Positions 26,060 through 41,889 of a stretch of 64,000 nt of DNA are shown in pieces. Origin of the DNA: Phycisphaerales bacterium (lineage in GTDB: Bacteria > Planctomycetota > Phycisphaerae > Tepidisphaerales > Tepidisphaeraceae); NCBI GenBank assembly GCA_020853095.1, contig JADYZN010000039.1, forward strand, positions 62,001-126,000. Reading direction: 5' to 3'. A program made the translations under genes and the position numbers. A model generated the notes under the pieces. That model worked only from the letters and a program-made list of their open reading frames with translations. It ran no database searches and was not told the DNA's origin. Each line of letters opens with the position of its first letter. The first letter of the stretch is position 1.

Positions 26060-26503
26060 TCATTTCCCCTTCAACCAAGCCAGGAAATCGGCCGAATCCA
26101 TCGCGCCGCTGGCCAGTTTTTGTGGCTTGCCCTCCGGCGACAGCAGCACGAAATGCGGCACCGCCTCCACGTGATAATCCATCGCCACATCCCGATGCTG
26201 GTCGATGTCGATCTTCACCGGCACGTATTGCCGCAATGCCGTCTCAACGGCCGGATCCGCCCAGGTCGTGTGCCGCAACGACTGGCACGGACCACACCAA
26301 CTGGCCGTGAAATACATCAGCAGCGGCTTGTTGCTCTGCTTTGATTCCGCCTGGGCGGCCGTCAAATCCATCCGCCAGGGGACGATTTCATCCCCGCGCA
26401 GCCAGTTGGTCACCCCCACCACCGCGATAAACCCCACCAGAATCAAAAACAGACCCCAGACTGGATTGAATTTCTTTGCCATGGCAACCCGATCTTTGGC
26501 CAT
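26060..26503 (-). CDS. Membrane-anchored thioredoxin-like protein
   Basis: About 147 residues: one N-terminal membrane anchor (LFLILVGFIAVVGV) followed by a thioredoxin fold with the redox motif WCGPC and the cis-proline segment VEAVPHFVLL. It should face the periplasm and reduce or isomerise disulfides. Such proteins often help cytochrome c maturation, and a cluster of multiheme cytochromes begins about 650 bases away on the other strand. That link is inference. ATG at 26,503 has a GGGG element before it; ATG at 26,482 is also possible. Confidence 0.85.
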   Translation of the reverse strand: MAKDRVAMAKKFNPVWGLFLILVGFIAVVGVTNWLRGDEIVPWRMDLTAAQAESKQSNKPLLMYFTASWCGPCQSLRHTTWADPAVETALRQYVPVKIDIDQHRDVAMDYHVEAVPHFVLLSPEGKPQKLASGAMDSADFLAWLKGK

Positions 26504-26591
26504 CGGACCCCAAAAAGTCAACTTTTTCGTGCAGGTTACGCCCCTTGTAATTCATTTATTTGGGGATAGGATGAAATTCGTTAAGAAAAAC

Positions 26592-26620
26592 TTGACGTCA
26601 TAGCGATATAATGAGATAAA
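26592..26620 (+). promoter_or_regulatory. Weak candidate promoter of the Rrf2 gene
   Basis: TTGACG at 26,592-26,597, a 17-base spacer and GATAAA at 26,615-26,620 lie in an AT-rich stretch. A better TATAAT at 26,607-26,612 has no good -35 partner. The region is far richer in A and T than the surrounding genome, which fits a promoter, but the exact hexamers are uncertain. Confidence 0.3.
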
Positions 26621-26659
26621 AGCATGTGAATAATAGTATGAGAAGCGTTTGGAGGTTGA

Positions 26660-27094
26660 ATGATCCCGCTGACAGGCTTGTACGCCATACGAGCCATGGC
26701 CGTTCTGGGTACTTGCCCGGCAACGGGATTTATCGCGGCGGGAAAGGTGGCGAAAATCGTCGGAGCGCCTCCAAACTATCTCGGCAAATTATTGCAGCTT
26801 TTGTCCCGGCATGGATTGCTGATTTCGCAAAAAGGGTACAGCGGCGGTTTTCGACTGGCCCGGCCCGCGGATCAGATCACGCTGGGAGAAGTGGTGGATT
26901 GCCTTCAACCCCTGGATCATTGGTGGGGTTGTTTACTGGGACCCAAACGATGTTCGGAAACCCAGTCCTGTGCCGTGCATGAACAGTGGAAGGCGATCCG
27001 ACAGCAGTACTTGGATTTGTTATGGAAAACCACGGTTGCGCAGGTGATCGTGGAACATCCGAATGCGGGTTTGGAGTGGCCGATTTTGGATTAA
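26660..27094 (+). CDS. Rrf2-family Fe-S or NO-sensing transcription regulator
   Basis: The 144-residue protein has the Rrf2 winged helix: YAIRAMAVLG, the recognition region VGAPPNYLGKLLQLL, and the wing QKGYSGGFRLARP. Cysteines at 91, 98 and 104 (spacing C-x6-C-x5-C) match the cluster-binding cysteines of IscR and NsrR. NsrR senses nitric oxide through such a cluster. The gene sits 59 bases before the nar-ACIII operon in the same direction, so it probably controls it. A strong GGAGG ribosome site sets the start at 26,660. Confidence 0.9.
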   Translation: MIPLTGLYAIRAMAVLGTCPATGFIAAGKVAKIVGAPPNYLGKLLQLLSRHGLLISQKGYSGGFRLARPADQITLGEVVDCLQPLDHWWGCLLGPKRCSETQSCAVHEQWKAIRQQYLDLLWKTTVAQVIVEHPNAGLEWPILD

Positions 27095-27098
27095 ATCA

Positions 27099-27111
27099 TG
27101 CGATTGTCGCA
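27099..27111. promoter_or_regulatory. Dyad TGCGA-TTG-TCGCA upstream of the nar operon
   Basis: A perfect 5+3+5 inverted repeat sits just after the rrf2 stop and 43 bases before the cytochrome gene. It could be an operator for the Rrf2 protein or another dimeric regulator. I did not find an FNR-type TTGAT-N4-ATCAA here. Short dyads occur by chance, so this stays tentative. Confidence 0.35.
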
Positions 27112-27153
27112 CTTTAATTCAGATAAGGACATGCGTAAATAAGGTAAACTCCT

Positions 27154-28014
27154 ATGGCTGCCACAAGGCGACTGGGAACGGGATGGACGGGTTTGGGGGT
27201 ATGGATTGCCCTGTTGGGGTTGGGCATTATCGGACCTGGAGCGGCCTGGGGGCAGGATGCCGCGACCGATTTTCGTAACAACTGCATGAGCTGCCACACG
27301 ATCGGCGGCGGCCGGCTGGTCGGGCCGGACTTGAAGGGGGTCACGAGTCGGCAGGATCGCGCCTGGCTCTTGAAATTCATCACCGATCCCAAGGCGATGA
27401 TTGATTCGGGCGATCCGGAAGCTCAAAAGCTGCTGAAGGAATCGGGCGGGGTCATCATGCCGACGCTGCCGTTGGGCAAGGCGCGGATCGAGGCGTTGAT
27501 CGACCTGTTGGAATCGGAATCGAAACTGGAACGATCGAAATTCGCCGGGCAGGTGGTCAGCAACCGTCCGCTGGGGCCGGAGGATATCGCGGCCGGCGAG
27601 CGGATTTTCACGGGTCGGCAGGCCCTGAGCGCTGGTGGGGCGGCCTGTTATTCCTGTCATACGGTGCAAGGGGTGGGCGGCCTTGGGGGCGGGGCACTGG
27701 GGCCGGACCTGACCAAGGTATTTGAACGATTGGGCGGACGAAAGGGTCTGACCGCCTGGCTGGGTTCGCCGGCGACGGCGACGATGCAGGCGGCGTTTGG
27801 CACCCATCCGCTGGAACAGGGGGAGATCGAATCCCTGGTGGCGTATTTCCAATCGCAAACCCAACTGGCCGAAACACCCCAGCCCCGGCAGCTCTTTTTG
27901 GGGTTGGGACTGGCCGGCGCGTGCTTCGCGTTGTGGGGCTTGAATTCGTTGTGGAAACGACGTCTGGGCGGGGTTCGTCGGGCAATGGTCCAAAAAGCGG
28001 CAATCAAAGGATAA
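27154..28014 (+). CDS. narC: Membrane-anchored diheme cytochrome c (NarC-like)
   Basis: The 286-residue protein has a signal peptide ([15 protein letters not shown], cleavage near AWGQDA), two c-type heme sites, CMSCH and CYSCH, and a C-terminal membrane anchor ([16 protein letters not shown]). Each heme lies in its own domain, with Met residues that could be sixth ligands. In Thermus, the nar operon starts with narC, a diheme membrane cytochrome linked to the nitrate reductase. The position just before narG suggests the same role here. The gene symbol is assigned by that analogy. Confidence 0.85.
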
Positions 28015-28018
28015 TCAT

Positions 28019-31000
28019 ATGAGCACCGACCTGAAATGGATTCGGGACACTTCCAATCCCTCCGAGCGGAAATGGGAGGAGTTTTATCGCAATCGCTGGC
28101 AGCACGACAAGGTGATTCGCAGCACCCACGGCGTCAACTGCACGGGGGGCTGTTCGTGGCAGATTTACGTCAAGGATGGGATCGTCACCTGGGAAATGCA
28201 GGCGCTGGATTATCCGATCTTGAACAACGGCGTGCCGCCCTATGAGCCGCGCGGCTGTCAGCGCGGGATTTCGTTTTCCTGGTATCTGTACAGCCCGATC
28301 CGGGTGAAATATCCGTACGTTCGCGGTGCGTTGATCGACCTGTGGAAGGATGCGCGGGCCAAGCACGATGATCCGGTGGAAGCCTGGCGCAGCCTGGTGG
28401 AGAATGAAACCGCCCGCAAGCGCTGGCAAACCGCGCGCGGCAAGGGTGGACTTCGCCGGGCGGACTGGGAAACGGTGCTGGAGATCATCGCCGCCTCGAC
28501 GATCCACACAATCAAGAAGCACGGCCCGGACCGAGTGGCTGGGTTCTCGCCGATCCCCGCGATGTCGATGATCAGTTATGCGTCCGGAGCACGGTTCCTG
28601 CAACTGTTGGGCGGGACGTCTCTGTCGTTTTACGATTGGTATTCCGACCTGCCGCCGGCATCGCCGGAGGTCTGGGGCGAACAGACGGACGTGCAGGAAT
28701 CGGCCGACTGGTATAACGCCAAGTTCCTGGCGGTGATGGGGTCGAATCTCAACATGACCCGCACGCCCGACTGCCATTTCGCGGCCGAGGCGAGACACAA
28801 CGGCACGAAAATGGTGGTTTTCGCGCCGGATTTCAACCAGGTCGCCAAGTACGCCGACGAGTGGCTGGCGGTCAACGCCGGGCAGGATGGGGCGTGGTGG
28901 ATGGCGGTCAACCACGTGCTGCTCAAGGAATTCCATCACGAACAGCAGACACCTTATTTTCTGGATTACGCCAAGAAATTCACCGACGGCCCGCTGTTGG
29001 TGGAATTGACGGAGGAAAAGGGCGTTTTCGAGGCCGGTCAACTGCTGCGGGCGGATCGCATTGACCGCTATGCACAGGTCGAAAACGGCAAATGGAAATT
29101 TCTCACGTGGGACCGCGCAAGCGGCCAAGTGAAAATGCCATTAGGGAGCGTCGGCTTCCGCTGGGGCCAGGAAAAGGGGAAATGGAACCTGCAACCCAAG
29201 GATGGCCTGGATGGCAGCGACATCGACATGGAATTGACGCTGTTGAACAGCCGGGATGATGTGGCATCGGTGCGATTGGACGATTTCGCCGAGGGCAAGA
29301 GCATCGTCCGTCAGGTGCCGGTCAAGCGCATCAAGCTGGCCGACGGAACGGTTGCCACCGTCACGACGGTGTACGACATTATGATGGCGCACTTTGGCGT
29401 CGGCCGGGGATTGGGCGGAGACTATTCGACCAGTTACGACGACGACCAGTCCTATACCCCCGCCTGGTCGGAGAAATTCACCGGCCTTGGACGCGAGGCG
29501 GTGATCCGTTTTGCCCGCGAATGGGGCCGAACGGCCGAGAAGACCAACGGCAAATGCACGGTGATCATCGGGGCGGGGGTCAACCACTGGTATCACGCGA
29601 ACCTGATGTACCGCGGCCCGATCACGGCGCTGATGCTGTGTGGATGCGTCGGGGTCAACGGCGGCGGCCTGGCGCACTACGTCGGCCAGGAAAAGCTCGC
29701 TCCGGGCGAACCCTGGTCGGCAATCGCCTTCGGTAAGGACTGGCACGGGCCATCGAGGCTGCAAAACGCGCCGAGCTGGCATTACGTCAACACCGACCAA
29801 TGGCGTTACGAGAAATCATTTACCGACTATCACACCGTGCCCACGCGGCAGACGAAGGATTCCCTGGCGCAAGGGCACACGATGGACACTCAGGTGCGCG
29901 CCGTGCGCAGCGGGTGGCTGCCGTTTTATCCTCAGTTTGACAAAAGCAGCCTTGATCTGGCCAAAGAGGCACAACAGGCGGGCGCGAAGACCGACCAGGA
30001 AGTCGGGGCATACGTCGCCGGGCAGCTCAAGAGCAGAAAGCTGAAATTCTCGGTCGAAGACCCCGATGCCGCATGCAACTGGCCGCGTGTCTGGTTCATC
30101 TGGCGCGGCAACGCCCTGATGGCCAGCGCCAAGGGGCACGAATATTTCCTCAAGCATTACCTGGGGACGCACAACAATTCGATCTCCAGCGAGGAACTGG
30201 CGAAGGATTCGGTCAAGGAAGTGGCGTGGCACGAGAAGGCGCCGCAGGGCAAGATGGACCTGGTGGTGGACCTGAACTTCCGGATGGACACCTCGGCGCT
30301 TTATTCGGACATCATCCTGCCGGCGGCGACGTGGTACGAAAAGGCGGACTTGAACAGCACGGACATGCACAGCTTCGTCCACCCGCTGTCGCCGGCGGTG
30401 CCGCCGTGCTGGCAATCCAAGACCGACTGGCAGATTTTCCGTTCCATCGCCCGCAAGGTTTCGGAATTGTCCGAACGGCATTTCCCCGAACCCGTGGCGG
30501 ACGTGGTGGCGTCGCCGCTGTCGCACGACTCGCCCGCGGAGATCGCCCAGCCGCAGATGCTGGACTGGAGCAAGGGGGAATGCGAACCGATCCCCGGCAA
30601 GACGATGCCCTCGTTCGGCGTGGTGATGCGCGACTACCGCAATTTGTACAACCAGTACAACTCGCTGGGGCCGCGGGTGCGTGAAAAGGGACTTGGGGCG
30701 CACGGGACGCATTACCAGTGCGCCGACTTCTACGACCAGATGGTGGCGACCGGCCCGATCAAAAACTGGGGCGGCAAGACCTATCCCTCGATCGCCGAGG
30801 ACAAGGAGGTCTGCAACACCATCCTGAATCTGGCCAGCGTCACCAACGGTGAACTGGCGTATCGGTCCTACAAGAACATCGAGGAGAAGGTGGGCCTGCC
30901 GCTGGCGCACCTGGCCGAAAAGATGCGTGGCGTGCGGATGACCTATGAAGGGCTGCAGACCCGCCCGCACCGGGTGCTGAACAGCCCGATGTGGTCGGGG

Positions 31001-31657
31001 CTGCTGGACGATGGCCGGCCTTATTCGCCGTTCACCTACAACGTGGAAAACCTGGTTCCCTGGCGCACGCTGACCGGACGGCAGCATTTTTATCTGGATC
31101 ATCCGATGTACATCCAGTTCGGCGAGCATGTGCCGGCCTACAAACCCAAGCCGTTGCCGACGCAGTACGCGGACCTGAAATTCAGCGTCGAGGTCGGCAA
31201 GACCAAGATGCTCAATTATCTGACGCCGCACGGCAAGTGGCACATCCACTCCACCTACGGCGACACCGAGCGGATGATGACGCTCTCACGCGGCATCGAG
31301 CCATTCTGGATCAACGACAAGGATGCCGTCGACATTGGCGTCAACGACAACGACTGGGTGGAAGTCCACAACGACAACGGCGTGGTGGTGACGAGGGCGG
31401 CCGTCAGTGCCCGCATCCCACGCGGCGTCTGCATCCAGTATCACTCGCCCGAGCGCACGCTGTCGGTGCCGCGATCCCCGTTGCGGGGCAACAAGCGAGC
31501 CGGCGGGCACAACTCGCTGACCCGCACGCGGTTGAAACCCAACCTGATGGCCGGTGGTTATGGTCAGTTTACGTTTCACTTTAACTACTGGGGTCCCATC
31601 GGGTGCAACCGCGACACGCACGTGCTGGTGCGGAAACTTCCGGAGTTGAACTGGTAG
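28019..31657 (+). CDS. narG: Respiratory nitrate reductase alpha subunit
   Basis: The 1212-residue catalytic subunit carries the FS0 cluster ligands His37, Cys41, Cys45 and Cys80 (H-x3-C-x3-C-x34-C) near the N-terminus, exactly the NarG pattern. The Mo-ligand region [12 protein letters not shown] at about 204-215 is followed by [15 protein letters not shown], closely matching E. coli NarG. There is no twin-arginine signal peptide, so the active site should face the cytoplasm. It reduces nitrate to nitrite using a molybdenum bis-MGD cofactor. It starts four bases after narC with an AAGGA ribosome site. Confidence 0.97.
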
Positions 31658-31691
31658 AACCAAATTGAACCTCTGATCCGAAGGTGTTGTT

Positions 31692-33182
31692 ATGAATGTG
31701 CGTTCGCAAATCGCGATGGTGTTCCACCTGGACAAGTGCATCGGGTGCCACACCTGTTCCATTGCCTGCAAAAACATCTGGACCGACCGCGAAGGCGCGG
31801 AGTACATGTGGTGGAACAACGTCGAAACCAAGCCCGGAACCGGTTTCCCCACCCGCTGGGAGGACCAGGACACCTACCGCGGCGGCTGGGAAATCAAGGA
31901 TGGCAAGCTGCGTCTCCGCTCGGCCAACAAAGGGTACGTCCTGGGCAAGATCTTTCACAACCCCGCCCAGCCGAGCATTGACGAGTATTACGAGCCTTGG
32001 ACCTACCGGTATCAGGACCTGTTCAACGCCCCCGAAGGGTCGGACCAGCCGATCGCCCGGCCGGTCTCGAAGATCACCGGCAAGGAGATCGCCATCGAAG
32101 CCGGCCCCAACTGGGATGATGACCTGGGCGGCTCGCCGGTCTACGCCGAAAACGACCCCAACCTCGACTCGCTCACCGAGGAGCAGCGCGAACAGCTCTT
32201 CGCGGTCGAACGGCTGGTGATGTTCTATTTCCCGCGCATCTGCAACCACTGCCTCAACCCCTCGTGCGTGGCGGCCTGTCCATCGGGCGCGATCTACAAG
32301 CGCGGCGAGGATGGGATCGTCCTGATCGACCAGACCCGCTGTCGCGGCTGGCGCGCGTGCGTATCGGCCTGCCCCTACAAAAAGGTTTTCTTCAACTGGA
32401 AGACCGGCAAAAGCGAAAAGTGCCTGCTCTGCTTCCCCCGTCTTGAAACCGGACAGGCCCCGGCCTGCTTCCATTCGTGCGTGGGTCGAATCCGCTACCT
32501 CGGCGTGCTGCTGTACGATGCCGATCGCATCGAGGAGGTCGCCCTCAGCAGCGACGAAAACCTGATCGAAGCCCATCGTTCGATGATCCTCGATCCGCAC
32601 GACCCCCAGGTCATCCGACAGGCCCAGAGCAACGGCGTTCACGATTCGGTCATCGAGGCGGCGCAGAAATCCCCGGTGTATCAGTTCGTCAAAGTCTGGA
32701 AAATGGCCCTGCCGCCGCACATCGAGTTCCGCACGCTGCCGATGCTCTTTTACGTTCCGCCGATGTCGCCGGTGATGTCGATGCGCAAGGGGGATGTGCT
32801 GACGCAATCGGACCAGGGGCTGTTCCACGAGATCGACAACGCCCGCGTGCCGATGCAATACCTCGCCAAGCTGTTCGGCGCCGGCCACGACGCCAAGGTG
32901 CGGTACGCCCTGAAAAAGCAGATGGCCATCCGCTCCTATCGCCGGGCCGTGACGGTCGGCGACATCGAGCCGCACATCGCCAACCAGATGTTGCGCGAAG
33001 CCGACTGCACGCCGGCCGAGGCCGAGGCCATCTACAAGCTGACCTCCCTGTGCACCTTCGAGGAACGCTTCGTCATCCCCCCCATGCACCGCGAAGAGGC
33101 GCTGGAAATGATGGAAGACCCCATGGACCACAAGCGGGAAACCGGCTTTGGACTGGTGGGCAAACCCCAGAGGGGATCATGA
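31692..33182 (+). CDS. narH: Respiratory nitrate reductase beta subunit
   Basis: The 496-residue electron-transfer subunit has four cysteine groups: CIGCHTCSIAC (Cys16, 19, 22, 26), CNHCLNPSCVAAC, CRGWRACVSAC and a C-terminal set in CLLCFPRLETGQAPACFHSC. The Trp in CRGWRAC replaces a cysteine and marks the [3Fe-4S] site as in known NarH. It passes electrons from NarI hemes to NarG. It overlaps narJ by four bases. Confidence 0.97.
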   Translation: MNVRSQIAMVFHLDKCIGCHTCSIACKNIWTDREGAEYMWWNNVETKPGTGFPTRWEDQDTYRGGWEIKDGKLRLRSANKGYVLGKIFHNPAQPSIDEYYEPWTYRYQDLFNAPEGSDQPIARPVSKITGKEIAIEAGPNWDDDLGGSPVYAENDPNLDSLTEEQREQLFAVERLVMFYFPRICNHCLNPSCVAACPSGAIYKRGEDGIVLIDQTRCRGWRACVSACPYKKVFFNWKTGKSEKCLLCFPRLETGQAPACFHSCVGRIRYLGVLLYDADRIEEVALSSDENLIEAHRSMILDPHDPQVIRQAQSNGVHDSVIEAAQKSPVYQFVKVWKMALPPHIEFRTLPMLFYVPPMSPVMSMRKGDVLTQSDQGLFHEIDNARVPMQYLAKLFGAGHDAKVRYALKKQMAIRSYRRAVTVGDIEPHIANQMLREADCTPAEAEAIYKLTSLCTFEERFVIPPMHREEALEMMEDPMDHKRETGFGLVGKPQRGS

Positions 33183-33718
33183 GAGCCCTGAGAATCGAAA
33201 TCCACGCCGCGATGGCGGAATTGCTGGCCTACCCTGGTGAAGATTTTCACAGGAAGGTCGGTGAGACGGCCGCGCTGATGCGCACCACAAAGCCCGAAGC
33301 GGCCGCGCATCTGGACCGGTTCGCCGAACAGATCGCCGGCCTGTCGCCGCAACAACTGGAAGAATCGTACACGCGCACCTTCGACATCAACCCCGTCTGC
33401 TGTCTCGAAGTCGGCTGGCACCTGCACGGCGACAACTACGACCGCGGCGATTTTCTGGTGCGGATGCGGCAAAACCTCCGCGAGCTGGGCCTGGAGGAGG
33501 GATTGGAACTGCCCGATCACCTCACCCACGTCCTGCCGGTCGTCGGCCGGCTGCCGGAGACCGAAGGGGATGACCTGGCGGTCAATTCGGTCGCGCCGGC
33601 GATCCATAAAATGCTCGAAGGGCTGTCCGGCAAAGACAATCCATACGAACAAGTCCTGCTGTCGGTATTACGGCTGCTGCCACAACTGCAAACGGCGTCT
33701 ACAGGGAGTGCATCATGA
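33179..33718 (+). CDS. narJ: Nitrate reductase assembly chaperone
   Basis: A 179-residue protein of the NarJ/TorD type: all-helical, starting ALRIEIHAAMAELLAYPG, with the RTFDINPVCCLEVGWHLHG segment typical of NarJ. It is not part of the final enzyme but is needed to insert the molybdenum cofactor into NarG. The ATG at 33,179 overlaps narH; a much longer open frame starting at 32,477 lies over narH and is not real. It also overlaps narI by four bases. Confidence 0.93.
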   Translation: MRALRIEIHAAMAELLAYPGEDFHRKVGETAALMRTTKPEAAAHLDRFAEQIAGLSPQQLEESYTRTFDINPVCCLEVGWHLHGDNYDRGDFLVRMRQNLRELGLEEGLELPDHLTHVLPVVGRLPETEGDDLAVNSVAPAIHKMLEGLSGKDNPYEQVLLSVLRLLPQLQTASTGSAS

Positions 33719-34407
33719 ACGGCACGATATTGGACCTCTTTTTGTTTGTCGTCCTGCCGTACGCGGCGACGGCGATCTTCTTCATCGGAACGATCCGGCG
33801 CTATCGCACGCAGCCGTTTTCCTACTCCTCGCTGTCGTCGCAGTTCCTGGAAAACAAAAAGCATTTCTGGGGACTGGTTCCGTTCCATTACGGCCTGATC
33901 GTGATCCTGACCGGCCACCTGATCGGATTTCTGGTTCCCCGATCGGTCATCTGGTGGAACCGCGTGCCGGCCCGGCTCTACATCCTTGAAATCAGCGCCT
34001 TGATCTTCGGGCTGCTGACGGTGATCGGCCTGATCCAGATCATCTACCGCCGGCTCTCCTCCGGGCGCGTCCTCGTGGTCACCTCCACAATGGACTGGGT
34101 GCTATACATCCTGCTGCTGATCCAGGTCGTGCTGGGCCTGTACACCGCCCTGGCGTACCCGTGGGGATCGACCTGGTTCGCGGCGCTGGCGGCGCCATAC
34201 CTGTGGTCGCTGTGTAAGTTCTCGCCGGATGTGTCGTTCGTCGCGCCGTTGCCCTGGATGTTCAAGGCGCACATCGTAGGCGCGTACGCCCTGGTCGCGA
34301 TCTTCCCCTTCACTAGGCTGGTTCACTTGCTGGTGTACCCGCTGCCGTACGTCTGGCGCAAGCCGCAGGTGGTGCGCTGGTATTCCCGCCCGGAGGGCAT
34401 CCGATGA
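33715..34407 (+). CDS. narI: Nitrate reductase gamma subunit, cytochrome b
   Basis: A 230-residue membrane protein with five spans. His58 (PFHYG), His68 (TGHLIG), His186 (FKAHIVG) and His204 (LVHLLVYP) match the four ligands of the two b hemes in E. coli NarI (His56, 66, 187, 205). It oxidises quinol on the outer side and passes electrons to NarH. Keeping all ligands means the enzyme can draw directly on quinol. It overlaps actA by four bases, which joins the nar and ACIII gene sets. Confidence 0.96.
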   Translation: MNGTILDLFLFVVLPYAATAIFFIGTIRRYRTQPFSYSSLSSQFLENKKHFWGLVPFHYGLIVILTGHLIGFLVPRSVIWWNRVPARLYILEISALIFGLLTVIGLIQIIYRRLSSGRVLVVTSTMDWVLYILLLIQVVLGLYTALAYPWGSTWFAALAAPYLWSLCKFSPDVSFVAPLPWMFKAHIVGAYALVAIFPFTRLVHLLVYPLPYVWRKPQVVRWYSRPEGIR

Positions 34408-35057
34408 ATCGCCCGATCATTCTGGTCGTGCTCCTGGTGGCGATGGGATTTGGTTTGTGGGCGGCCGTGGCCCCGCTGTCGGCGGTTCGCCTGCCGGGCG
34501 ACAACCAGCTCTACGAACCCCAGCAGCCCATCGCCTATTCCCACCGGCTGCACGCCGGCGAACTGGGCATCAACTGCCTTTATTGTCACGGCGCGGCCGA
34601 ACATTCGCGCCGGGCCGGCGTCCCCGCCGCCAGCACCTGCATGAACTGCCACAAGTACGTCACCTCGACGCTGGATGCCAAACGCGCCGAAGATGACCTG
34701 TCGCAAAAGGAAAATCGTTCGCCCCGGCGCATCGTCTCGAGCGAACTGGCCAAGCTCTACGACGCCATGGGGCTGGATGAACACATGAACGTGGACCCCA
34801 AGCGCAAACAGCACCCCATCGAGTGGACCCGCATCCATCATCTACCCTCGTTCGTCAGTTTTGACCACAGCCGGCACGTCAACGCGGGCGTCACCTGCCA
34901 GACCTGCCATGGTCCCATCGAAACCATGGAGCGCGTCCGCCAGATTCCCGACCTGACGATGGGTTGGTGCGTCAACTGCCATCGCGACGTCAACGCCAAC
35001 GGCGTCAACGGCAAACCGGTCCAGGCCTCCACCGATTGTATTTCGTGCCATCAATAA
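34404..35057 (+). CDS. actA: ACIII pentaheme cytochrome c subunit ActA
   Basis: The 217-residue protein has an N-terminal membrane anchor (PIILVVLLVAMGFGLWA) and five CXXCH sites: CLYCH, CMNCH, CQTCH, CVNCH and CISCH, the last almost at the C-terminus. Five hemes plus one anchor is the ActA layout of alternative complex III. Extra His residues such as HRLHAG and FDHSRHVNAG supply sixth ligands as in c7/c3-type cytochromes. It starts inside the end of narI. Confidence 0.93.
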   Translation: MNRPIILVVLLVAMGFGLWAAVAPLSAVRLPGDNQLYEPQQPIAYSHRLHAGELGINCLYCHGAAEHSRRAGVPAASTCMNCHKYVTSTLDAKRAEDDLSQKENRSPRRIVSSELAKLYDAMGLDEHMNVDPKRKQHPIEWTRIHHLPSFVSFDHSRHVNAGVTCQTCHGPIETMERVRQIPDLTMGWCVNCHRDVNANGVNGKPVQASTDCISCHQ

Positions 35058-35072
35058 GCCTTGGGAGCAACG

Positions 35073-38000
35073 ATGTCCGACGTCGACAACAAGCATTACT
35101 GGAAAGTTCCCGCCGACCGTGATGGCGGCGAGTCGTATCGCCTCAAGGTCATCAACGAATTTCCCGAGGAACTGGACCTCAAGGGTGAATCCGATGGGAT
35201 CAACCGCCGCAGTTTTCTGAAGGCGACCGGCTTCGCTTTCGCCGGCGCCGTGGTGGCCCAGATGACCGGTTGCAGCCGCCCGCCGGAACAGAAAATCATC
35301 CCGTTCCTCGAACAGCCCGAAGAAATCATCCCCGGCCGCGAATACTGGTACGCCTCCACCTGTCACGGATGCAGCGCCGGATGCGGCATCCTCACCCGCA
35401 ACCTCGACGGCCGGCCGGTCAAACTCGAAGGCAACCCCCACCATCCACTTTCCAAAGGTGGCCTGTGCGCCGTCGGCCAGGCATCCATCCTGCCGCTGTA
35501 CGACTCCCACCGCCTGCGCATCCCCATGATGGGGGGCAACGAGGCCAAATGGGAACAGGTCGATCAGGCCATCGTCTCCCGGCTGGCAGAGGTCCGTCAA
35601 AACGGCGGGGCGGTTCGATTTTTATCCTCCACCGTCAACAGCCCCACCCTGCGGCGGTCCATCCGTGAATTTCTGGCCGGCTTCCCCGGCTCGCGGCACA
35701 TCCAATACGATGCGCTCTCCTCCTCCGCCATCCAAAGCGCCCACCAGGCCACCCACGGCGCGCGCATCCTGCCCCATTACCGCTTCGACCGCGCCCGGAT
35801 GATCGTCAGCTTTGACGCGGATTTTCTGGGAACCTGGATTTCACCCGTTGAATTCACCCGCGACTACACCGACAGCCGGTCGCTCAAAAGCACACCGCCG
35901 GTCATGTCGCTGCACGTGCAGGTTGAGTCGCGCATGTCCCTGACCGGTTCATCCGCCGACCGCCGGCATGTCGTCACGCCGCGGGAATGCGATGACTGGG
36001 TCGCCCTGCTGGCCTCCAAAATCGCCAGACTGGCCGGCCAGACCCTCGCCGCGCCGGCCCTTGATCCGCAATCGGATGCCCTCATCGACGAGCTGGCCAA
36101 CCAACTATGGCATCATCGCGGCCAAAGCCTCATCGTCTGCGGCAGCAACCGGACCGCCACGCAGGTCCACATCAACCGCATCAACCACCTGCTGGGAAAT
36201 GAAGGTCAAACCGTCGATCTGGCCGCCCCCTCCCGGCAACGACAAGGGGATGACGCCGAGCTGGAGACGCTTCGTAAGGAAATCGCCGCTGGCAAGGTCT
36301 CGGCCCTGTTCATTCTCAACGCCAACCCCGCCTACGACCTGCCGGACTTCGCCGAGTTCGCCCAGCAGGTCCAACAAATTCCGCTGGTCGTCAGCTTCGC
36401 CGATCGACTCGACGAAACGGCGAGCCTCGCCCACTTTGTCTGCCCCGATCACCATTACCTCGAATCCTGGCACGACCAGGAGCCGGTCGCCGGGCTGATC
36501 TCCATCACCCAGCCCTCGATCAACCCCCTGCATCAGACCCGCGCGGTCGTCGAAAGCCTCGCCCTCTGGCGCGGCAAGCCGGCCGACGCCTACACCCTCA
36601 TGCAGCAAACCTGGAAAGAGGACCTGCTCAAACGTCAAAACACCCACAGCCAGTTCCAGACGTTCTGGGACCAGGCCCTGCAGATGGGCTTCGCGCAAGT
36701 CCAGCCTGAATCGCCCGCGGCCAAATCCTTCAACGGGCCGGCCGTCGCCGCGGCCGCCTCCACCCAACCATCCGTGCCTTCGGGGAAGCTGGCACTGGTG
36801 CTTTACCCCACCATCGGCATGCTCGATGGACGCAACGCCCACAACGCGTGGCTCCACGAACTGCCCGATCCGGTCACCAAGGTGACCTGGGACAATTACG
36901 CCTCCTTCTCCCCCGCGACCGCCGCGTCGCTGGGAATCACCGAAGGAGACGTCGTCCGCCTCGCCGACGATCAGGTCAAAATCGAACTGCCCGCCCATCT
37001 GCAGCCTGGCCAGAACGACCAGGTCGTCGCCGTCGCCCTGGGTTACGGCCGCAAGGGAACCGACCGTTTCGCCTTCGTCGGCCCGCAATGGCTTGAATCC
37101 AAACCCACCGTGGAACCGGGCCATCTCGTCGGCCGCAACGCCGCGTCGTTCCTCACCCGGCAGGACAACCAGACCCTCTACTCAAACCGGTCGGTTCAAG
37201 TCGAACGCACCGGCGCCCGCCACGCCCTGGCAAGCACCCAGTTGCATCATTCCATCGACGTCCCGGCCAATCTGGCCTCTCCGGATGAACGCCGCCGGCC
37301 CATCGTCGAGGAGACCACCCTCGCCGCCCTGGCCAAAGACCCGCACGCCGGCGCCAACCACCACGAGCTGTTCCCATCCCTCTGGGCGCCGGATCAAAAA
37401 TACCCCGGCCACAAATGGGGCATGTCCATCGACATGAACGCCTGCACGGGCTGCTCGGCCTGCGTCGTCGCCTGCCAGATCGAAAACAACGTGCCGGTCG
37501 TCGGCAAGGATGAAATCGCCCGTCAGCGCGAGATGCACTGGATCCGCATCGACCGGTATTACACCTCCGAAGGGTACGACACCGACGTCGCCCATCAGCC
37601 GATGCTCTGCCAGCATTGCGAAAACGCGACCTGCGAAACCGTCTGCCCCGTGCTGGCCACCGTTCACAGCTCCGAGGGCATCAACCAGCAGGTTTACAAC
37701 CGATGCGTCGGCACCCGATATTGCGCCAACAACTGCGCCTACAAGGTACGCCGGTTCAACTGGTTTAATTACGCCCACGAGGACCAGATGCAAAACATGG
37801 TCCTCAACCCCGAAGTCACCGTCCGCAGCCGCGGCGTCATGGAAAAATGCTCGTTCTGCATTCAGCGCATCTCCAACGCCAAGGCCCGCGCCAAGGAGGA
37901 TGGCCGGCCGCTGGCCGATGGCGACGTCAAAACCGCCTGCCAGCAGTCCTGCCCCGCCCAGGCCATCGTCTTCGGAGACCTCAACGATCCCAACAGCCAG

Positions 38001-38126
38001 GTGTCGCAAATGAGAGCCAACGGCCGCTCCTACCGCGTGCTGGAAGAATTGAAAGTCGAACCCTCGATCGGTTACCTGCGAATCGTCCGCAACCGCCCGC
38101 AACAGTTGGAGGAATCACATGTCTAG
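35073..38126 (+). CDS. actB: ACIII molybdopterin-like/ferredoxin fusion subunit ActB
   Basis: The 1017-residue protein has a Tat motif at Arg45-Arg46 (RRSFLKATG), then a lipobox ending at Cys67 (AQMTGC), so it is likely a Tat-exported lipoprotein. The first 700 residues resemble molybdoenzyme catalytic subunits. Unusually they keep Cys97, Cys100, Cys104 and Cys132 (CHGCSAGC and GLC), a possible [4Fe-4S] site. The last 230 residues form a ferredoxin domain with CTGCSACVVAC, CQHCENATCETVC, CVGTRYCANNC and CSFC/ACQQSC. ATG at 35,073 follows GGGAG. Confidence 0.94.
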   Translation: MSDVDNKHYWKVPADRDGGESYRLKVINEFPEELDLKGESDGINRRSFLKATGFAFAGAVVAQMTGCSRPPEQKIIPFLEQPEEIIPGREYWYASTCHGCSAGCGILTRNLDGRPVKLEGNPHHPLSKGGLCAVGQASILPLYDSHRLRIPMMGGNEAKWEQVDQAIVSRLAEVRQNGGAVRFLSSTVNSPTLRRSIREFLAGFPGSRHIQYDALSSSAIQSAHQATHGARILPHYRFDRARMIVSFDADFLGTWISPVEFTRDYTDSRSLKSTPPVMSLHVQVESRMSLTGSSADRRHVVTPRECDDWVALLASKIARLAGQTLAAPALDPQSDALIDELANQLWHHRGQSLIVCGSNRTATQVHINRINHLLGNEGQTVDLAAPSRQRQGDDAELETLRKEIAAGKVSALFILNANPAYDLPDFAEFAQQVQQIPLVVSFADRLDETASLAHFVCPDHHYLESWHDQEPVAGLISITQPSINPLHQTRAVVESLALWRGKPADAYTLMQQTWKEDLLKRQNTHSQFQTFWDQALQMGFAQVQPESPAAKSFNGPAVAAAASTQPSVPSGKLALVLYPTIGMLDGRNAHNAWLHELPDPVTKVTWDNYASFSPATAASLGITEGDVVRLADDQVKIELPAHLQPGQNDQVVAVALGYGRKGTDRFAFVGPQWLESKPTVEPGHLVGRNAASFLTRQDNQTLYSNRSVQVERTGARHALASTQLHHSIDVPANLASPDERRRPIVEETTLAALAKDPHAGANHHELFPSLWAPDQKYPGHKWGMSIDMNACTGCSACVVACQIENNVPVVGKDEIARQREMHWIRIDRYYTSEGYDTDVAHQPMLCQHCENATCETVCPVLATVHSSEGINQQVYNRCVGTRYCANNCAYKVRRFNWFNYAHEDQMQNMVLNPEVTVRSRGVMEKCSFCIQRISNAKARAKEDGRPLADGDVKTACQQSCPAQAIVFGDLNDPNSQVSQMRANGRSYRVLEELKVEPSIGYLRIVRNRPQQLEESHV

Positions 38127-39513
38127 CGCGTTTTCGGTCCTGCGACAACCTCTGGTTGAAGGTGATCGCACCGTCGCACAGGTGACCTCGGACATCGCCG
38201 CGCCCCTCGAACGCCGCGCGGGACTGATGTGGTGGGCCACGTTCACCGCCGCCTTCTCCATGCTGATGCTGGGAATGATCGCCATCACCTACCAGGTCGC
38301 CACCGGCATCGGCACCTGGGGCCTCAACCGCACCGTCGGCTGGGCGTTTGACATCACCAACTTCGTCTTCTGGATCGGCATCGGCCACGCCGGGACCGCC
38401 ATCTCCGCGTTCCTGTTCCTGCTCCGCCAGCGCTGGCGCACCTCCATCAGCCGGGCCGCCGAGGCCATGACCATCTTCGCGGTCATGTGCGCCGGCATCT
38501 TCCCGCTGATCCACATGGGCCGGCCCTGGTTCGCCTACTGGGTCCTTCCCTACCCCAACACCCGCGGCCCGCTGTGGGTCAATTTCCGCTCGCCGCTGCT
38601 GTGGGACGTCTTCGCCATCAGCACCTACTTCACCATCTCCGCGTGCTTCTGGTATCTGGGCCTGGTCCCCGACCTGGCCGCCCTGCGCGACCGCTTCGCG
38701 CTGTGGGCCAAAACCGGCTCCCTGGGCGTCCGCATCCGCTATCGCATCTATTCGATCCTCAGCCTCGGCTGGAACGGCTCGGCCAAAACCTGGAACGGCT
38801 ACGAATCGCTCTACCTGCTCATGGCGGGACTGGCCACCCCCCTGGTGGTCTCCGTCCACTCGATCGTCAGTTTCGACTTCGCCACCTCGATCCTGCCCGG
38901 CTGGCACACCACCATCTTCCCTCCTTATTTCGTCGCAGGCGCCTTGTTTTCAGGGTTCGGCATGGTGCTGACGCTCATGCTCATCGCCCGCAAGGTCGTC
39001 CACATGGAAAATTACATCACCCGCGGCCACATCGACGCGATGTGCAAGATCGTCATCGCCACCGGCGGCATGGTCGCCTTCGCCTACATCACCGAGATAT
39101 TCATCGCCTGGCAGTCCGGCAACCTCTACGAGCGATTCGCCTTCGCCAACCGCGCCTTCGGGCCTTTCGGCTGGGCCTATCGCATCATGGTCTTCTGCAA
39201 CGTCTTCGCGCCACAACTCTTGTGGATCCGCAAAATCCGCAACAACCTGCTGGCGGTCTTCATCCTCTCCATCTTCGTCAACATCGGCATGTGGTTTGAA
39301 CGCTTCGTGATCATCGTCACGTCCCTCCACCGCGATTTCCTCCCCTCCAGTTGGGCGCACTACACCCCCAGCCTCGTTGAAATCGCGACCCTGATCGGCA
39401 GCTTCGGCCTCTTTTTCACCGCATTCCTGCTCTTTTGCCGGGTGCTGCCGATGATCTGCATTTCCGAAGTCAAAGGCGTCCTGAATTACGGCCGCCGCAA
39501 TGGAGAACATTAA
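38119..39513 (+). CDS. actC: ACIII NrfD-like quinol-binding membrane subunit ActC
   Basis: A 464-residue polytopic protein with about ten spans of the NrfD/PsrC type. The pattern NFVFWIGIGHAGTAISAFLF and IFPLIHMGRPWFAYW is conserved in ActC and related quinone-interacting subunits. It overlaps actB by eight bases. With ActF it forms the membrane core of alternative complex III and should be the quinol oxidation site. Confidence 0.95.
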   Translation: MSSAFSVLRQPLVEGDRTVAQVTSDIAAPLERRAGLMWWATFTAAFSMLMLGMIAITYQVATGIGTWGLNRTVGWAFDITNFVFWIGIGHAGTAISAFLFLLRQRWRTSISRAAEAMTIFAVMCAGIFPLIHMGRPWFAYWVLPYPNTRGPLWVNFRSPLLWDVFAISTYFTISACFWYLGLVPDLAALRDRFALWAKTGSLGVRIRYRIYSILSLGWNGSAKTWNGYESLYLLMAGLATPLVVSVHSIVSFDFATSILPGWHTTIFPPYFVAGALFSGFGMVLTLMLIARKVVHMENYITRGHIDAMCKIVIATGGMVAFAYITEIFIAWQSGNLYERFAFANRAFGPFGWAYRIMVFCNVFAPQLLWIRKIRNNLLAVFILSIFVNIGMWFERFVIIVTSLHRDFLPSSWAHYTPSLVEIATLIGSFGLFFTAFLLFCRVLPMICISEVKGVLNYGRRNGEH

Positions 39514-40079
39514 TGAGCCGCCAACTTTTCATCGCGGCCTTCAAGCACGAGGATGACCTCCTCCACGCCGTCGCCGACCTGCGACAGGCCGGGTACGTCT
39601 TCAAGGACGCCTACACCCCCTACCCCGTCCACGGCCTGCCGGAAGCCATGGGCATTCGCCCATCCCGCCTCCCCTGGGTCTGCTTCCTGTGCGGGTTGAC
39701 CGGCGGATTGCTGGCTTTGATCGGCCAGTATTACCTTTCGGCCGTCGAATGGCCGATCAACGTCGGCGGCAAACCGTGGAATTCCAGCCCCGCCTTCATC
39801 CCCATCACCTTTGAACTCACCGTCCTGTCCGCCGGCCTCGGTTCGCTGGCGGCGTTTTTGTGGCGATACAAACTCATTCCCGGCCGGCAACCCCCCGTCC
39901 TCGAAACCGGCGCCAACGACGATCAGTTCGTCCTGGCCATCCCCGAACACAACGCCACGTTCAACCCGCAGGAATTGAAACTCATCTGCAACCGCCACCA
40001 CGCCATCCGCACCGAACAGCGCATCGAGCCGGATGGCCAGGCCCAGTCCATACCCGCCCAACAACGAGGAGCCGCCTGA
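39513..40079 (+). CDS. actD: ACIII subunit ActD
   Basis: A 188-residue protein with two membrane spans around FLCGLTGGLLALIGQYYL and LTVLSAGLGSLAAFLW. DAYTPYPVHGLPEAMG is the signature of ActD (DUF3341-type) proteins. It is a membrane subunit without cofactors. The ATG overlaps the actC stop by one base (TAATG), and the next gene overlaps by one base, so the set is tightly coupled. Confidence 0.94.
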   Translation: MSRQLFIAAFKHEDDLLHAVADLRQAGYVFKDAYTPYPVHGLPEAMGIRPSRLPWVCFLCGLTGGLLALIGQYYLSAVEWPINVGGKPWNSSPAFIPITFELTVLSAGLGSLAAFLWRYKLIPGRQPPVLETGANDDQFVLAIPEHNATFNPQELKLICNRHHAIRTEQRIEPDGQAQSIPAQQRGAA

Positions 40080-40708
40080 TGAAAACCGGAAAATGGATCG
40101 TTCCCCTGGCGGTGCTGGTGCTGATCCTGCTGATCGGCGGATGGATGCTGCGCCCCGATTATTCCCGCCGAAATTACGACTTCCTTCCCGACATGGCCTA
40201 TTCGCCGGCCTATGCCTCCCTGTCGGCCAATCCCAATTTCCCCGACGGCAAAACCGAACAACGTCCCGTCCCCGGAACCATCGCCCAGGGGTATCCACCC
40301 TTTCACTACAAAGCCACCCCCGAAGACGCCCGCCGGGCCGGGCTTGAACTGACCAACCCCTTGTCCTCCACCGACGCCAGGGCGATGGAACGCGGCGCAA
40401 CGATCTATTCCATCTACTGCCTTCCCTGTCACGGAACCACCGGCACCGGCGATGGCACGGTCGTCCAGCGCGGATTTCCCCCGCCTCCCTCATTGCTGTC
40501 CGACAACGCCCGCCAGATGCGCGATGGGCAGATGTACCACCTGATCACCCTCGGCCAGAACAACATGCCCTCTTACGCCTCCCAGGTGATGCGCGATGAC
40601 CGCTGGAAAGTCATCCTCCATATCCGCTCGCTCCAGGCCGCCGCGCCCGCCGCACCGGCCACCTCGACCGCTCCGGCAAACGCCGCCACCGAACCGTCCG
40701 CAAAATAG
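40079..40708 (+). CDS. actE: ACIII monoheme cytochrome c subunit ActE
   Basis: A 209-residue protein with an N-terminal anchor (VPLAVLVLILLIGGWML) and one heme site, CLPCH, followed by GTTGTGDG typical of class I cytochromes. DMAYSPAYASLSANPNF and FPPPPSL match ActE. A possible Met axial ligand is in NNMPSYASQ. It is the likely exit point for electrons from the complex to a soluble or membrane cytochrome acceptor. The C-terminal 25 residues are Ala/Pro-rich. Confidence 0.93.
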   Translation: MKTGKWIVPLAVLVLILLIGGWMLRPDYSRRNYDFLPDMAYSPAYASLSANPNFPDGKTEQRPVPGTIAQGYPPFHYKATPEDARRAGLELTNPLSSTDARAMERGATIYSIYCLPCHGTTGTGDGTVVQRGFPPPPSLLSDNARQMRDGQMYHLITLGQNNMPSYASQVMRDDRWKVILHIRSLQAAAPAAPATSTAPANAATEPSAK

Positions 40709-40716
40709 GAAATCCC

Positions 40717-41889
40717 ATGACCACGCTACAGCTTCCCACGTTCGCACCCCGCCCCGGACTGTTGACCCGACTGCGCCTGCTGATCGCGCTGGGCGTCATC
40801 GGCACGCTGGTCGGCCTGATCTTCGCCCCCAAGACCACCCTCGGCGGCCTGTTGCTGGGCGCGTGTTACAACCTCGGCATGGGCCTGGGCGCGATGGTCA
40901 TCATCGCCCTCAGTTACATCACCAAGGCGGGCTGGAGCACCGCCCTGCGCCGAATCCCCGAATCCATGGCCGCCACGCTTCCGCTCACCTGCCTGATCAT
41001 CCTGATCGTGCTGGCGGCGGGGTTCCATCAGCTCTATCCTTGGTTCAACAGCCACGAACATGGCCACGTGGACCCCTCATTGGCGCTGTGGCGCAAACCG
41101 GCCTTCTTTCTGGCCCGCGCCGCCGGGTGCATGATCATCTGGCTGCTGTTCACCCATGCCATCCTTCGCAATTCCCGCAAACAGGACCAGAGCGGCGACG
41201 TGCGGCTGACCCATCGCAACGTCGGCCTTTCGGGCGTCTTCCTGATGGTCCTGGCCCTGACCCTCTCCCTGGCCACCTTTGACTGGTTCATGAGCCTCCA
41301 GCCCCACTGGATCAGCACCATGCTGGGCGTCTACCATTTCGCCGGCCTGTTTCAGGCGTCCATCGCCGCGATGATCGTCATCACCATCCTCCTGCAACGC
41401 GCCGGCTTCCTGCAACAGATCGTCAAACCCGCCCACCTGCACGACCTGGGCAAATATCTCTTCTGCTTCACCACCTTCTGGGGCTACATCTGGTACAGCC
41501 AGTACATGCTGATCTGGTATTCCAACATCCCCGAGGAAACCTCGTATTTCATCCTCCGCCACAACGGACCCTGGCTGGCCGTCGCGTACGTCTCGGTCGC
41601 ATTGAACTGGGCCATCCCCTTCTTTGGCCTTCTTTCATCCACCACCAAGCGCAACGACCGGCTGCTTTTCAAACTCGCCGTGCTGGTGCTGATCGGCCAC
41701 TGGATCGACCTGTACAGCATCATCGTCCCCTCGATGGCCGGACCCTCCACCATGATCGATTTGTGGTCGGTGCTGCCCAGCCTGATCCTGCTGCCGATCT
41801 TCATCCTCGGCATGTTGCGGGCGTTGCGCGGATCACCGCTGATGCCGGCCCGCGACCCCATGCTGGTCGAGAGCCTGCATCATCATTGA
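40717..41889 (+). CDS. actF: ACIII membrane subunit ActF
   Basis: A 390-residue polytopic protein with about ten spans, the second large membrane subunit of alternative complex III and structurally related to ActC/NrfD. TFDWFMSLQPHWISTMLGVY and FTTFWGYIWYSQYMLIWY are conserved in ActF. An AGGAAA ribosome site precedes the start. No cytochrome oxidase gene follows; the next gene is convergent and unrelated. Confidence 0.94.
   Translation: MTTLQLPTFAPRPGLLTRLRLLIALGVIGTLVGLIFAPKTTLGGLLLGACYNLGMGLGAMVIIALSYITKAGWSTALRRIPESMAATLPLTCLIILIVLAAGFHQLYPWFNSHEHGHVDPSLALWRKPAFFLARAAGCMIIWLLFTHAILRNSRKQDQSGDVRLTHRNVGLSGVFLMVLALTLSLATFDWFMSLQPHWISTMLGVYHFAGLFQASIAAMIVITILLQRAGFLQQIVKPAHLHDLGKYLFCFTTFWGYIWYSQYMLIWYSNIPEETSYFILRHNGPWLAVAYVSVALNWAIPFFGLLSSTTKRNDRLLFKLAVLVLIGHWIDLYSIIVPSMAGPSTMIDLWSVLPSLILLPIFILGMLRALRGSPLMPARDPMLVESLHHH

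Follow-up and report, generated by a model that had tools for sequence, protein, structure and literature searches.

A CATG-centred operator predicted for a probable Rrf2-family regulator of a nar-alternative complex III operon in the Planctomycetota

Analysis of a 64,000-nucleotide stretch (hereafter the window) of contig JADYZN010000039.1 (GCA_020853095.1, positions 62,001-126,000) suggests, with moderate confidence, that the Rrf2-family gene preceding a respiratory operon encodes an NsrR-like, though not NsrR-orthologous, autoregulated repressor of the cytc-narGHJI-alternative complex III (ACIII) operon and of an nnrS region, which is probably responsive to nitric oxide (NO). Judged from sequence, the regulator very probably controls both the nar-ACIII operon and itself, whilst NO is probably the signal, an assignment that draws on gene neighbours. 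A preliminary description had proposed control of the operon by an NO- or redox-sensitive switch acting through an inverted repeat; control of the operon is supported here, albeit not through that repeat, and an NO-type switch is backed by the gene neighbours of related regulators and by an operator shared near nnrS. The features concerned, numbered by position in the window, are as follows.

26592-26612, plus strand: predicted rrf2 core promoter, TTGACG (26592-26597) and TATAAT (26607-26612), read from the sequence and conserved in the congener
26615-26634, unstranded: predicted operator O1, GATAAAAGCATGTGAATAAT, in the rrf2 promoter (matrix score 23.1 bits, best in 64 kb)
26660-27094, plus strand: rrf2, Rrf2-family regulator of 144 amino acids with C91, C98, C104 and H107 (open reading frame and profiles)
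27089-27108, unstranded: predicted weak operator O2, GATTAAATCATGCGATTGTC (9.3 bits, third best in 64 kb)
27099-27111, unstranded: inverted repeat (dyad) TGCGATTGTCGCA, overlapping O2, probably nonfunctional as such (sequence reading)
27113-27118, plus strand: possible -10 box for cytc-nar, TTTAAT, flanked by O2 and O3 (5 of 6 matches)
27122-27141, unstranded: predicted operator O3, GATAAGGACATGCGTAAATA (13.2 bits, second best in 64 kb)
27154-28014, plus strand: cytc, c-type cytochrome, first gene of the operon (PF00034, 50.9 bits)
28019-34407, plus strand: narGHJI (TIGR01580, TIGR01660, TIGR00684 and TIGR00351, all above cut-off)
28019-31657, plus strand: narG (NCBIfam)
31692-33182, plus strand: narH (NCBIfam)
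33143-33718, plus strand: narJ (NCBIfam)
33715-34407, plus strand: narI (NCBIfam)
34404-41889, plus strand: ACIII-like genes (PF14522 and PF03916 for two; homologues located in relatives), comprising multihaem c (34404-35057), Fe-S/molybdopterin-like (35061-38126), NrfD (38119-39513) and three more to 41889

Beyond the two with Pfam support, the names of the ACIII-like genes are presumed from gene order.

The product of rrf2 scored 95.1 bits against PF02082 (cut-off 30) and 92.7 against TIGR00738 (cut-off 73.3), which places it in the Rrf2 family. The Cys91-x6-Cys98-x5-Cys104 arrangement and the 59-base distance between gene and operon (gap 27095-27153, cytc start at 27154), both previously described, were confirmed; His107 is placed x2 after Cys104, and additional cysteines occur at positions 19 and 81. 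The three clustered cysteines are kept in the aligned proteins of the congener and of locus L039. The spacing is genuine but widespread; C-x6-C-x5-C-x2-H was the usual form among the Rrf2 proteins compared, including a second Rrf2 protein of the window's own genome. The protein probably carries an Fe-S cluster, for which Cys91, Cys98, Cys104 and His107 are the candidate ligands. A predicted structure (pLDDT 78, built from three sequences and of low confidence in the cluster loop) showed the winged-helix and long C-terminal dimer helix of the family. Its top fold matches in the PDB were CymR (Z 14.8), IscR (14.1), NsrR (13.2) and RsrR (13.1), and comparison of the model by fold did not separate the Rrf2 subfamilies.

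Side-by-side reading of rrf2 flanks first drew attention to a shared palindrome, and comparison across the clade of the window protein yielded a candidate operator different from the dyad, a 20-bp CATG-centred palindrome near GATAATCRCATGYGATTATC. A symmetric matrix built from five sites in three other genomes (L075, L076 and L078) was run over the entire window, where O1, O3 and O2 were the three highest-scoring 20-mers and the fourth reached only 2.3 bits. Among 200 first-order Markov windows the top score averaged 7.5 bits and was at largest 18.8, such that the score of O1 was never reached, and matches of at least 13.1 bits occurred at 0.06 per window. A pattern search allowing up to three mismatches returned 15 matches in the window (12.0 expected), with O1, O3 and O2 the only matches with 0, 1 or 2 mismatches. 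The one congener available (L038, JADLBV010000015.1, taken as G001:C18) encodes an Rrf2 protein 90% identical to that of the window, and its matching places scored 24.6 (O1), 17.3 (O3) and 7.0 bits (O2). The first arm of O2 overlaps the rrf2 stop codon, and O3 ends 12 bases upstream of the cytc start codon. The regulatory place that had been put in the gap does overlap a predicted site, but the stronger one, O1, lies before rrf2, outside the stretch then considered.

Since the motif was chosen after the window had been seen, the window, the congener and L039 are not independent tests, and the clean test was provided by the later-fetched clade loci L203-L207 with the matrix unchanged. All five had a site beside rrf2; their best scores in the rrf2 flanks were 10.3-21.0 bits, against at most -1.7 elsewhere, and the observed score was reached in 0 to 7 of 4000 shuffled flanks. 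The plan of the window recurs in L204, where a single site precedes rrf2 and a pair occupies the gap ahead of NnrS. L039 scored only 8.6 bits, and neither its hemerythrin nor its NO reductase genes are preceded by a site. The proteins of L206 and L207 (genome G582) are without C91, C104 and H107, yet strong operators precede the NnrS-like genes, hence DNA code and cluster can come apart. When all 85 rrf2 rows were scanned, 4 upstream and 10 downstream flanks reached at least 11 bits, compared with 0.34% of 1766 control segments, a count that includes the training rows and was made with a slightly different pseudocount. Most rrf2 genes outside the clade are without a CATG operator, as is the rrf2 paralogue at C8 of the window's own genome; L018, which belongs neither to the clade nor to the training rows, has a 21.4-bit site approximately 30 bases after rrf2. 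The CATG operator was likewise not found at the rrf2-cytc-nar loci L107 and L110, nor, in a looser GATA/TATC test, before cytc at L138-L140.

L107 and L110 (both G337) carry two tandem rrf2-type genes directly before cytc-narG, and hemerythrin genes and one more rrf2 lie in the vicinity. In six loci of family f41 (L124-L127, L129 and L133), a variant palindrome of approximately GATAA-N10-TTATC with a GGACTC-like centre lies 70-142 bp before cytc-narG, with a divergent rrf2 of another clade some 2 kb away in L124-L127. This variant was present before nar in 6 of 7 f41 loci and in 2 of 41 others, one of the latter being the congener.

The phylogeny of the regulator was inferred by maximum likelihood. 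In the first tree the window protein grouped with other Planctomycetota proteins in a clade of six rows (support 100/92), which grew to 11 rows (100/98) in the second tree, after five later-found proteins had been added. One duplicate fragment of L037 was removed before both trees, the long-branch rows L003, L004, L024, L036, L139 and one of L085 before the second only, and E. coli IscR and NsrR were retained throughout. The neighbours of clade rrf2 genes are mostly nitric-oxide genes. Hemerythrins are linked to NO regulons, and genes for a hemerythrin and a NorB-type NO reductase adjoin rrf2 in L039, L075 and L203. NnrS adjoins it in L204 and L206 (by Pfam) and in L207 (by a similar reading-frame start only), and L076 has a protoglobin and a radical-SAM gene. 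The remaining neighbours are nar-ACIII (window and congener), DUF7670 (L205) and a weak outer-membrane-type match (L078); the last two have no evident link to NO.

The pattern with at most one mismatch was found at 6 places in the window's own genome (G000) and 8 in that of the congener (G001), where a reversed control pattern was found at 1 and 3, respectively. By matched sequence the two genomes have in common O1, O3 and one further place (C32:10328 / C161:5550), the 20-mer of which is identical in both. On one side of this site stand a Pyridox_ox_2 gene and, after it, NnrS, and on the other a divergent radical-SAM gene (TIGR04053, above cut-off); the Pyridox_ox_2 gene is Nim-like, scoring far below the Nim cut-offs, and the site, at 13.5 bits, would not by itself stand out in a genome. 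An exact match at G000:C17:264 was set aside as coding, given that it falls inside a long open reading frame, which we take to be sugar-kinase-like. A search without a positive control found no NorZ or hemerythrin homologue in either genome, and COX1-family genes are present in that of the window.

Further sites were seen in more distant genomes. In G148, a 19.8-bit site and, 38 bases on, a weak second one (L180 2075-2132, G148:C113) stand before genes for a Rieske protein and cytochrome b, which are followed by a multihaem cytochrome gene; a Porin_O_P gene, with no evident NO link, follows a 21.9-bit site in the same genome. The Rieske-cytochrome b-multihaem operon represents a different quinol:cytochrome c complex in place of ACIII. 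In G182, a weak outer-membrane-type match follows a 25.2-bit site that belongs to the training set, and the control pattern is as frequent as the operator pattern.

The promoter layout is a reading of the sequence, as a promoter scan of the stretch upstream of rrf2 in the window listed none. TATAAT stands immediately before O1 in the window, the congener and L204, and an alternative -10 box for rrf2, GATAAA (26615-26620), begins 17 nt after TTGACG, leaving the spacing to the -10 uncertain. The -10 box of L039, L075 and L203 (TACAAT or TATAAT) coincides with the first arm of O1, and 16 nt upstream of it stands TTGACG or TTGACA. O1 accordingly overlaps or abuts a -10 box in six of the nine clade members that have it, an arrangement that would suit repression by blocking RNA polymerase; no -10-type box was evident at O1 in L205-L207. 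The possible -10 box of the gap, TTTAAT, is identical in the congener and has no good -35. A thioredoxin-like gene (PF13899, 26060-26521, minus strand) lies on the other side of the O1 promoter region and is oriented away from rrf2.

In the mechanism we propose, a dimeric winged-helix Rrf2 repressor with its cluster intact would bind CATG-centred 20-bp palindromes. Because the rrf2 promoter has O1 at its start, occupation of this site would repress rrf2 itself, whilst O2 and O3, flanking the probable promoter in the gap, would allow cytc-narGHJI-ACIII to be shut off, and the site at the Nim-like/nnrS pair and the divergent radical-SAM gene would add NO-response genes. NO arising from nitrate and nitrite reduction may then nitrosylate the cluster, whereupon binding would be lost and the operon turned on.

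The same operators and targets could instead serve a regulator that senses redox state, iron or Fe-S supply, as IscR and RsrR do. C91, C98, C104 and H107 align with the corresponding E. coli IscR positions, giving the full Cys3His set, whereas the E. coli NsrR row has a lysine at the His107 position; moreover, the PDB entries closest in sequence to the window protein include RsrR and D. shibae IscR. The aligned histidine of E. coli IscR is a cluster ligand. We nonetheless regard a signal of this kind as unlikely, given that the clade neighbours are NO genes as opposed to isc/suf or iron genes and that one site of the own genome lies near nnrS.

It is more improbable still that the regulator controls only itself through O1, with O2 and O3 incidental or weak secondary sites and nar-ACIII mainly under another regulator. 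O1 is far stronger than the other two sites, and amongst the 39 nar stretches of the phylum with at least 3.5 kb before narG, an rrf2-type gene was located in the roughly 3 kb preceding the operon in only 9, leaving 30 with none nearby. Against this, the congener's copy of O3 differs at just 1 of 20 positions and has the higher score, L204 likewise pairs a single site ahead of rrf2 with two ahead of the neighbouring gene, and a site also precedes the Rieske/cytochrome b operon in G148.

NarG was detected in 54 of 392 sampled genomes of the phylum and in 2 of 81 relatives, both of them members of the genus, showing the operon to be patchy and suggesting its transfer or repeated loss (27154-41889). 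In the 55 nar stretches fetched, a cytc homologue usually precedes narG, and ActA/ActB-like genes were present in 26 by our own count, several stretches ending early. Clusters joining nar to ACIII-like genes, with an 'iron-dependent regulator' nearby, have been published: the available part of PMC10732223 gives 13 instances of nar with a six-gene ACIII-like cluster in Planctomycetota MAGs, marks a 'FeTF, Iron-dependent transcriptional regulator' and norB among the neighbouring genes of interest, and interprets the ACIII-like genes as possibly encoding a nitrite reductase or a respiratory complex. This is the same operon type as that of the window, and the section of that paper devoted to it contains no operator, clade or regulon.

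The dyad that had been put forward between rrf2 and the operon, TGCGATTGTCGCA, is indeed present and perfect in that gap, and is the sole exact match in the window. However, a perfect 5-bp inverted repeat with a spacer of 0-10 occurred in 42% of 5000 shuffled copies of the gap (6.6% with a spacer of 3 only), and perfect 5-3-5 repeats number 93 in the window. The congener reads TGCTTTTATCGCA at this position; of five differences across the 59-base gap, three fall within the 13 bases of the dyad and two within the other 46. Set against the only congener, the gap is thus almost unchanged and the dyad is the part that varies most, which is the lack of conservation named beforehand as grounds for discarding it. 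Among 40 scanned loci no exact copy was found, except in two that are the window's own stretch. That the dyad itself is the operator is therefore highly improbable, such repeats being common and this one poorly conserved, and it was rejected as such. As an intrinsic terminator it would be weak, with a 5-bp stem, a 3-base loop and a poor T-run. Since it lies inside the weak copy O2, the first proposal came close on location while missing the sequence, a case of an eye-caught palindrome sitting right beside a likelier operator.

More tentatively, and with somewhat less than even confidence, the Planctomycetota may possess an NO-response Rrf2 regulator of their own, distinct from NsrR and with its own CATG code. 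It would couple nitrate or multihaem N-oxide reduction to the host's quinol:cytochrome c oxidoreductase and to NO defence, the oxidoreductase being ACIII in the host of the window and Rieske/cytochrome b in G148; a related branch would use the variant palindrome at f41 nar promoters, and some members would keep the code with the cluster lost. The literature found says little about how Planctomycetota control nitrate respiration. Neither operator nor regulon is reported in the literature searched, which lies mostly outside subscription journals and includes the available parts of PMC10732223, PMC1274295, PMC11014258 and PMC12343034. The predicted operator, recurring in 11 clade members of several families, provides concrete DNA probes, and the candidate regulon comprises nar-ACIII, nnrS, hemerythrin/NorB, protoglobin and the Rieske/cytochrome b operon. 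NO sensing in this phylum thereby becomes a directly testable question.

Amongst known regulators, IscR has the same fold and a C-x5/6-C-x5-C-x2-H ligand pattern. The window protein differs in scoring 53.6 and 36.3 bits against IscR equivalog cut-offs of 207.55 and 275, respectively, in the first cysteine spacing (C-x6), which is one residue longer, and in that its clade neighbours are not isc/suf genes. NsrR shares the Rrf2 fold, three clustered cysteines and palindromic operators at promoters, and its regulon includes nnrS and norB, as given in the available part of PMC1274295; NO-response genes of this type were found among the clade neighbours and at the nnrS-region site. The window protein nevertheless reached 58.6 bits against an NsrR equivalog cut-off of 182, and E. 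coli NsrR paired with L140 (100/97), apart from the window clade, albeit on long branches and with one reference. The NsrR consensus gATGyAT-N5-ATrCATc, with up to three mismatches, occurred 4 times in 64 kb (7.4 expected) and not at all within 26480-27260; the operator predicted in the window is CATG-centred, and the window protein has a histidine two residues after the third cysteine. Orthology to either NsrR or IscR was rejected on the profile cut-offs, and found no support in the first tree, in which long branches lead to the E. coli rows. ArnR of Corynebacterium, which is unrelated in sequence and according to the available part of PMC12343034 is not an Rrf2 protein, is described there as an NO-sensing [4Fe-4S] repressor of the nar operon and of an NO-defence gene, and thus offers a published precedent for a nar repressor that senses NO.
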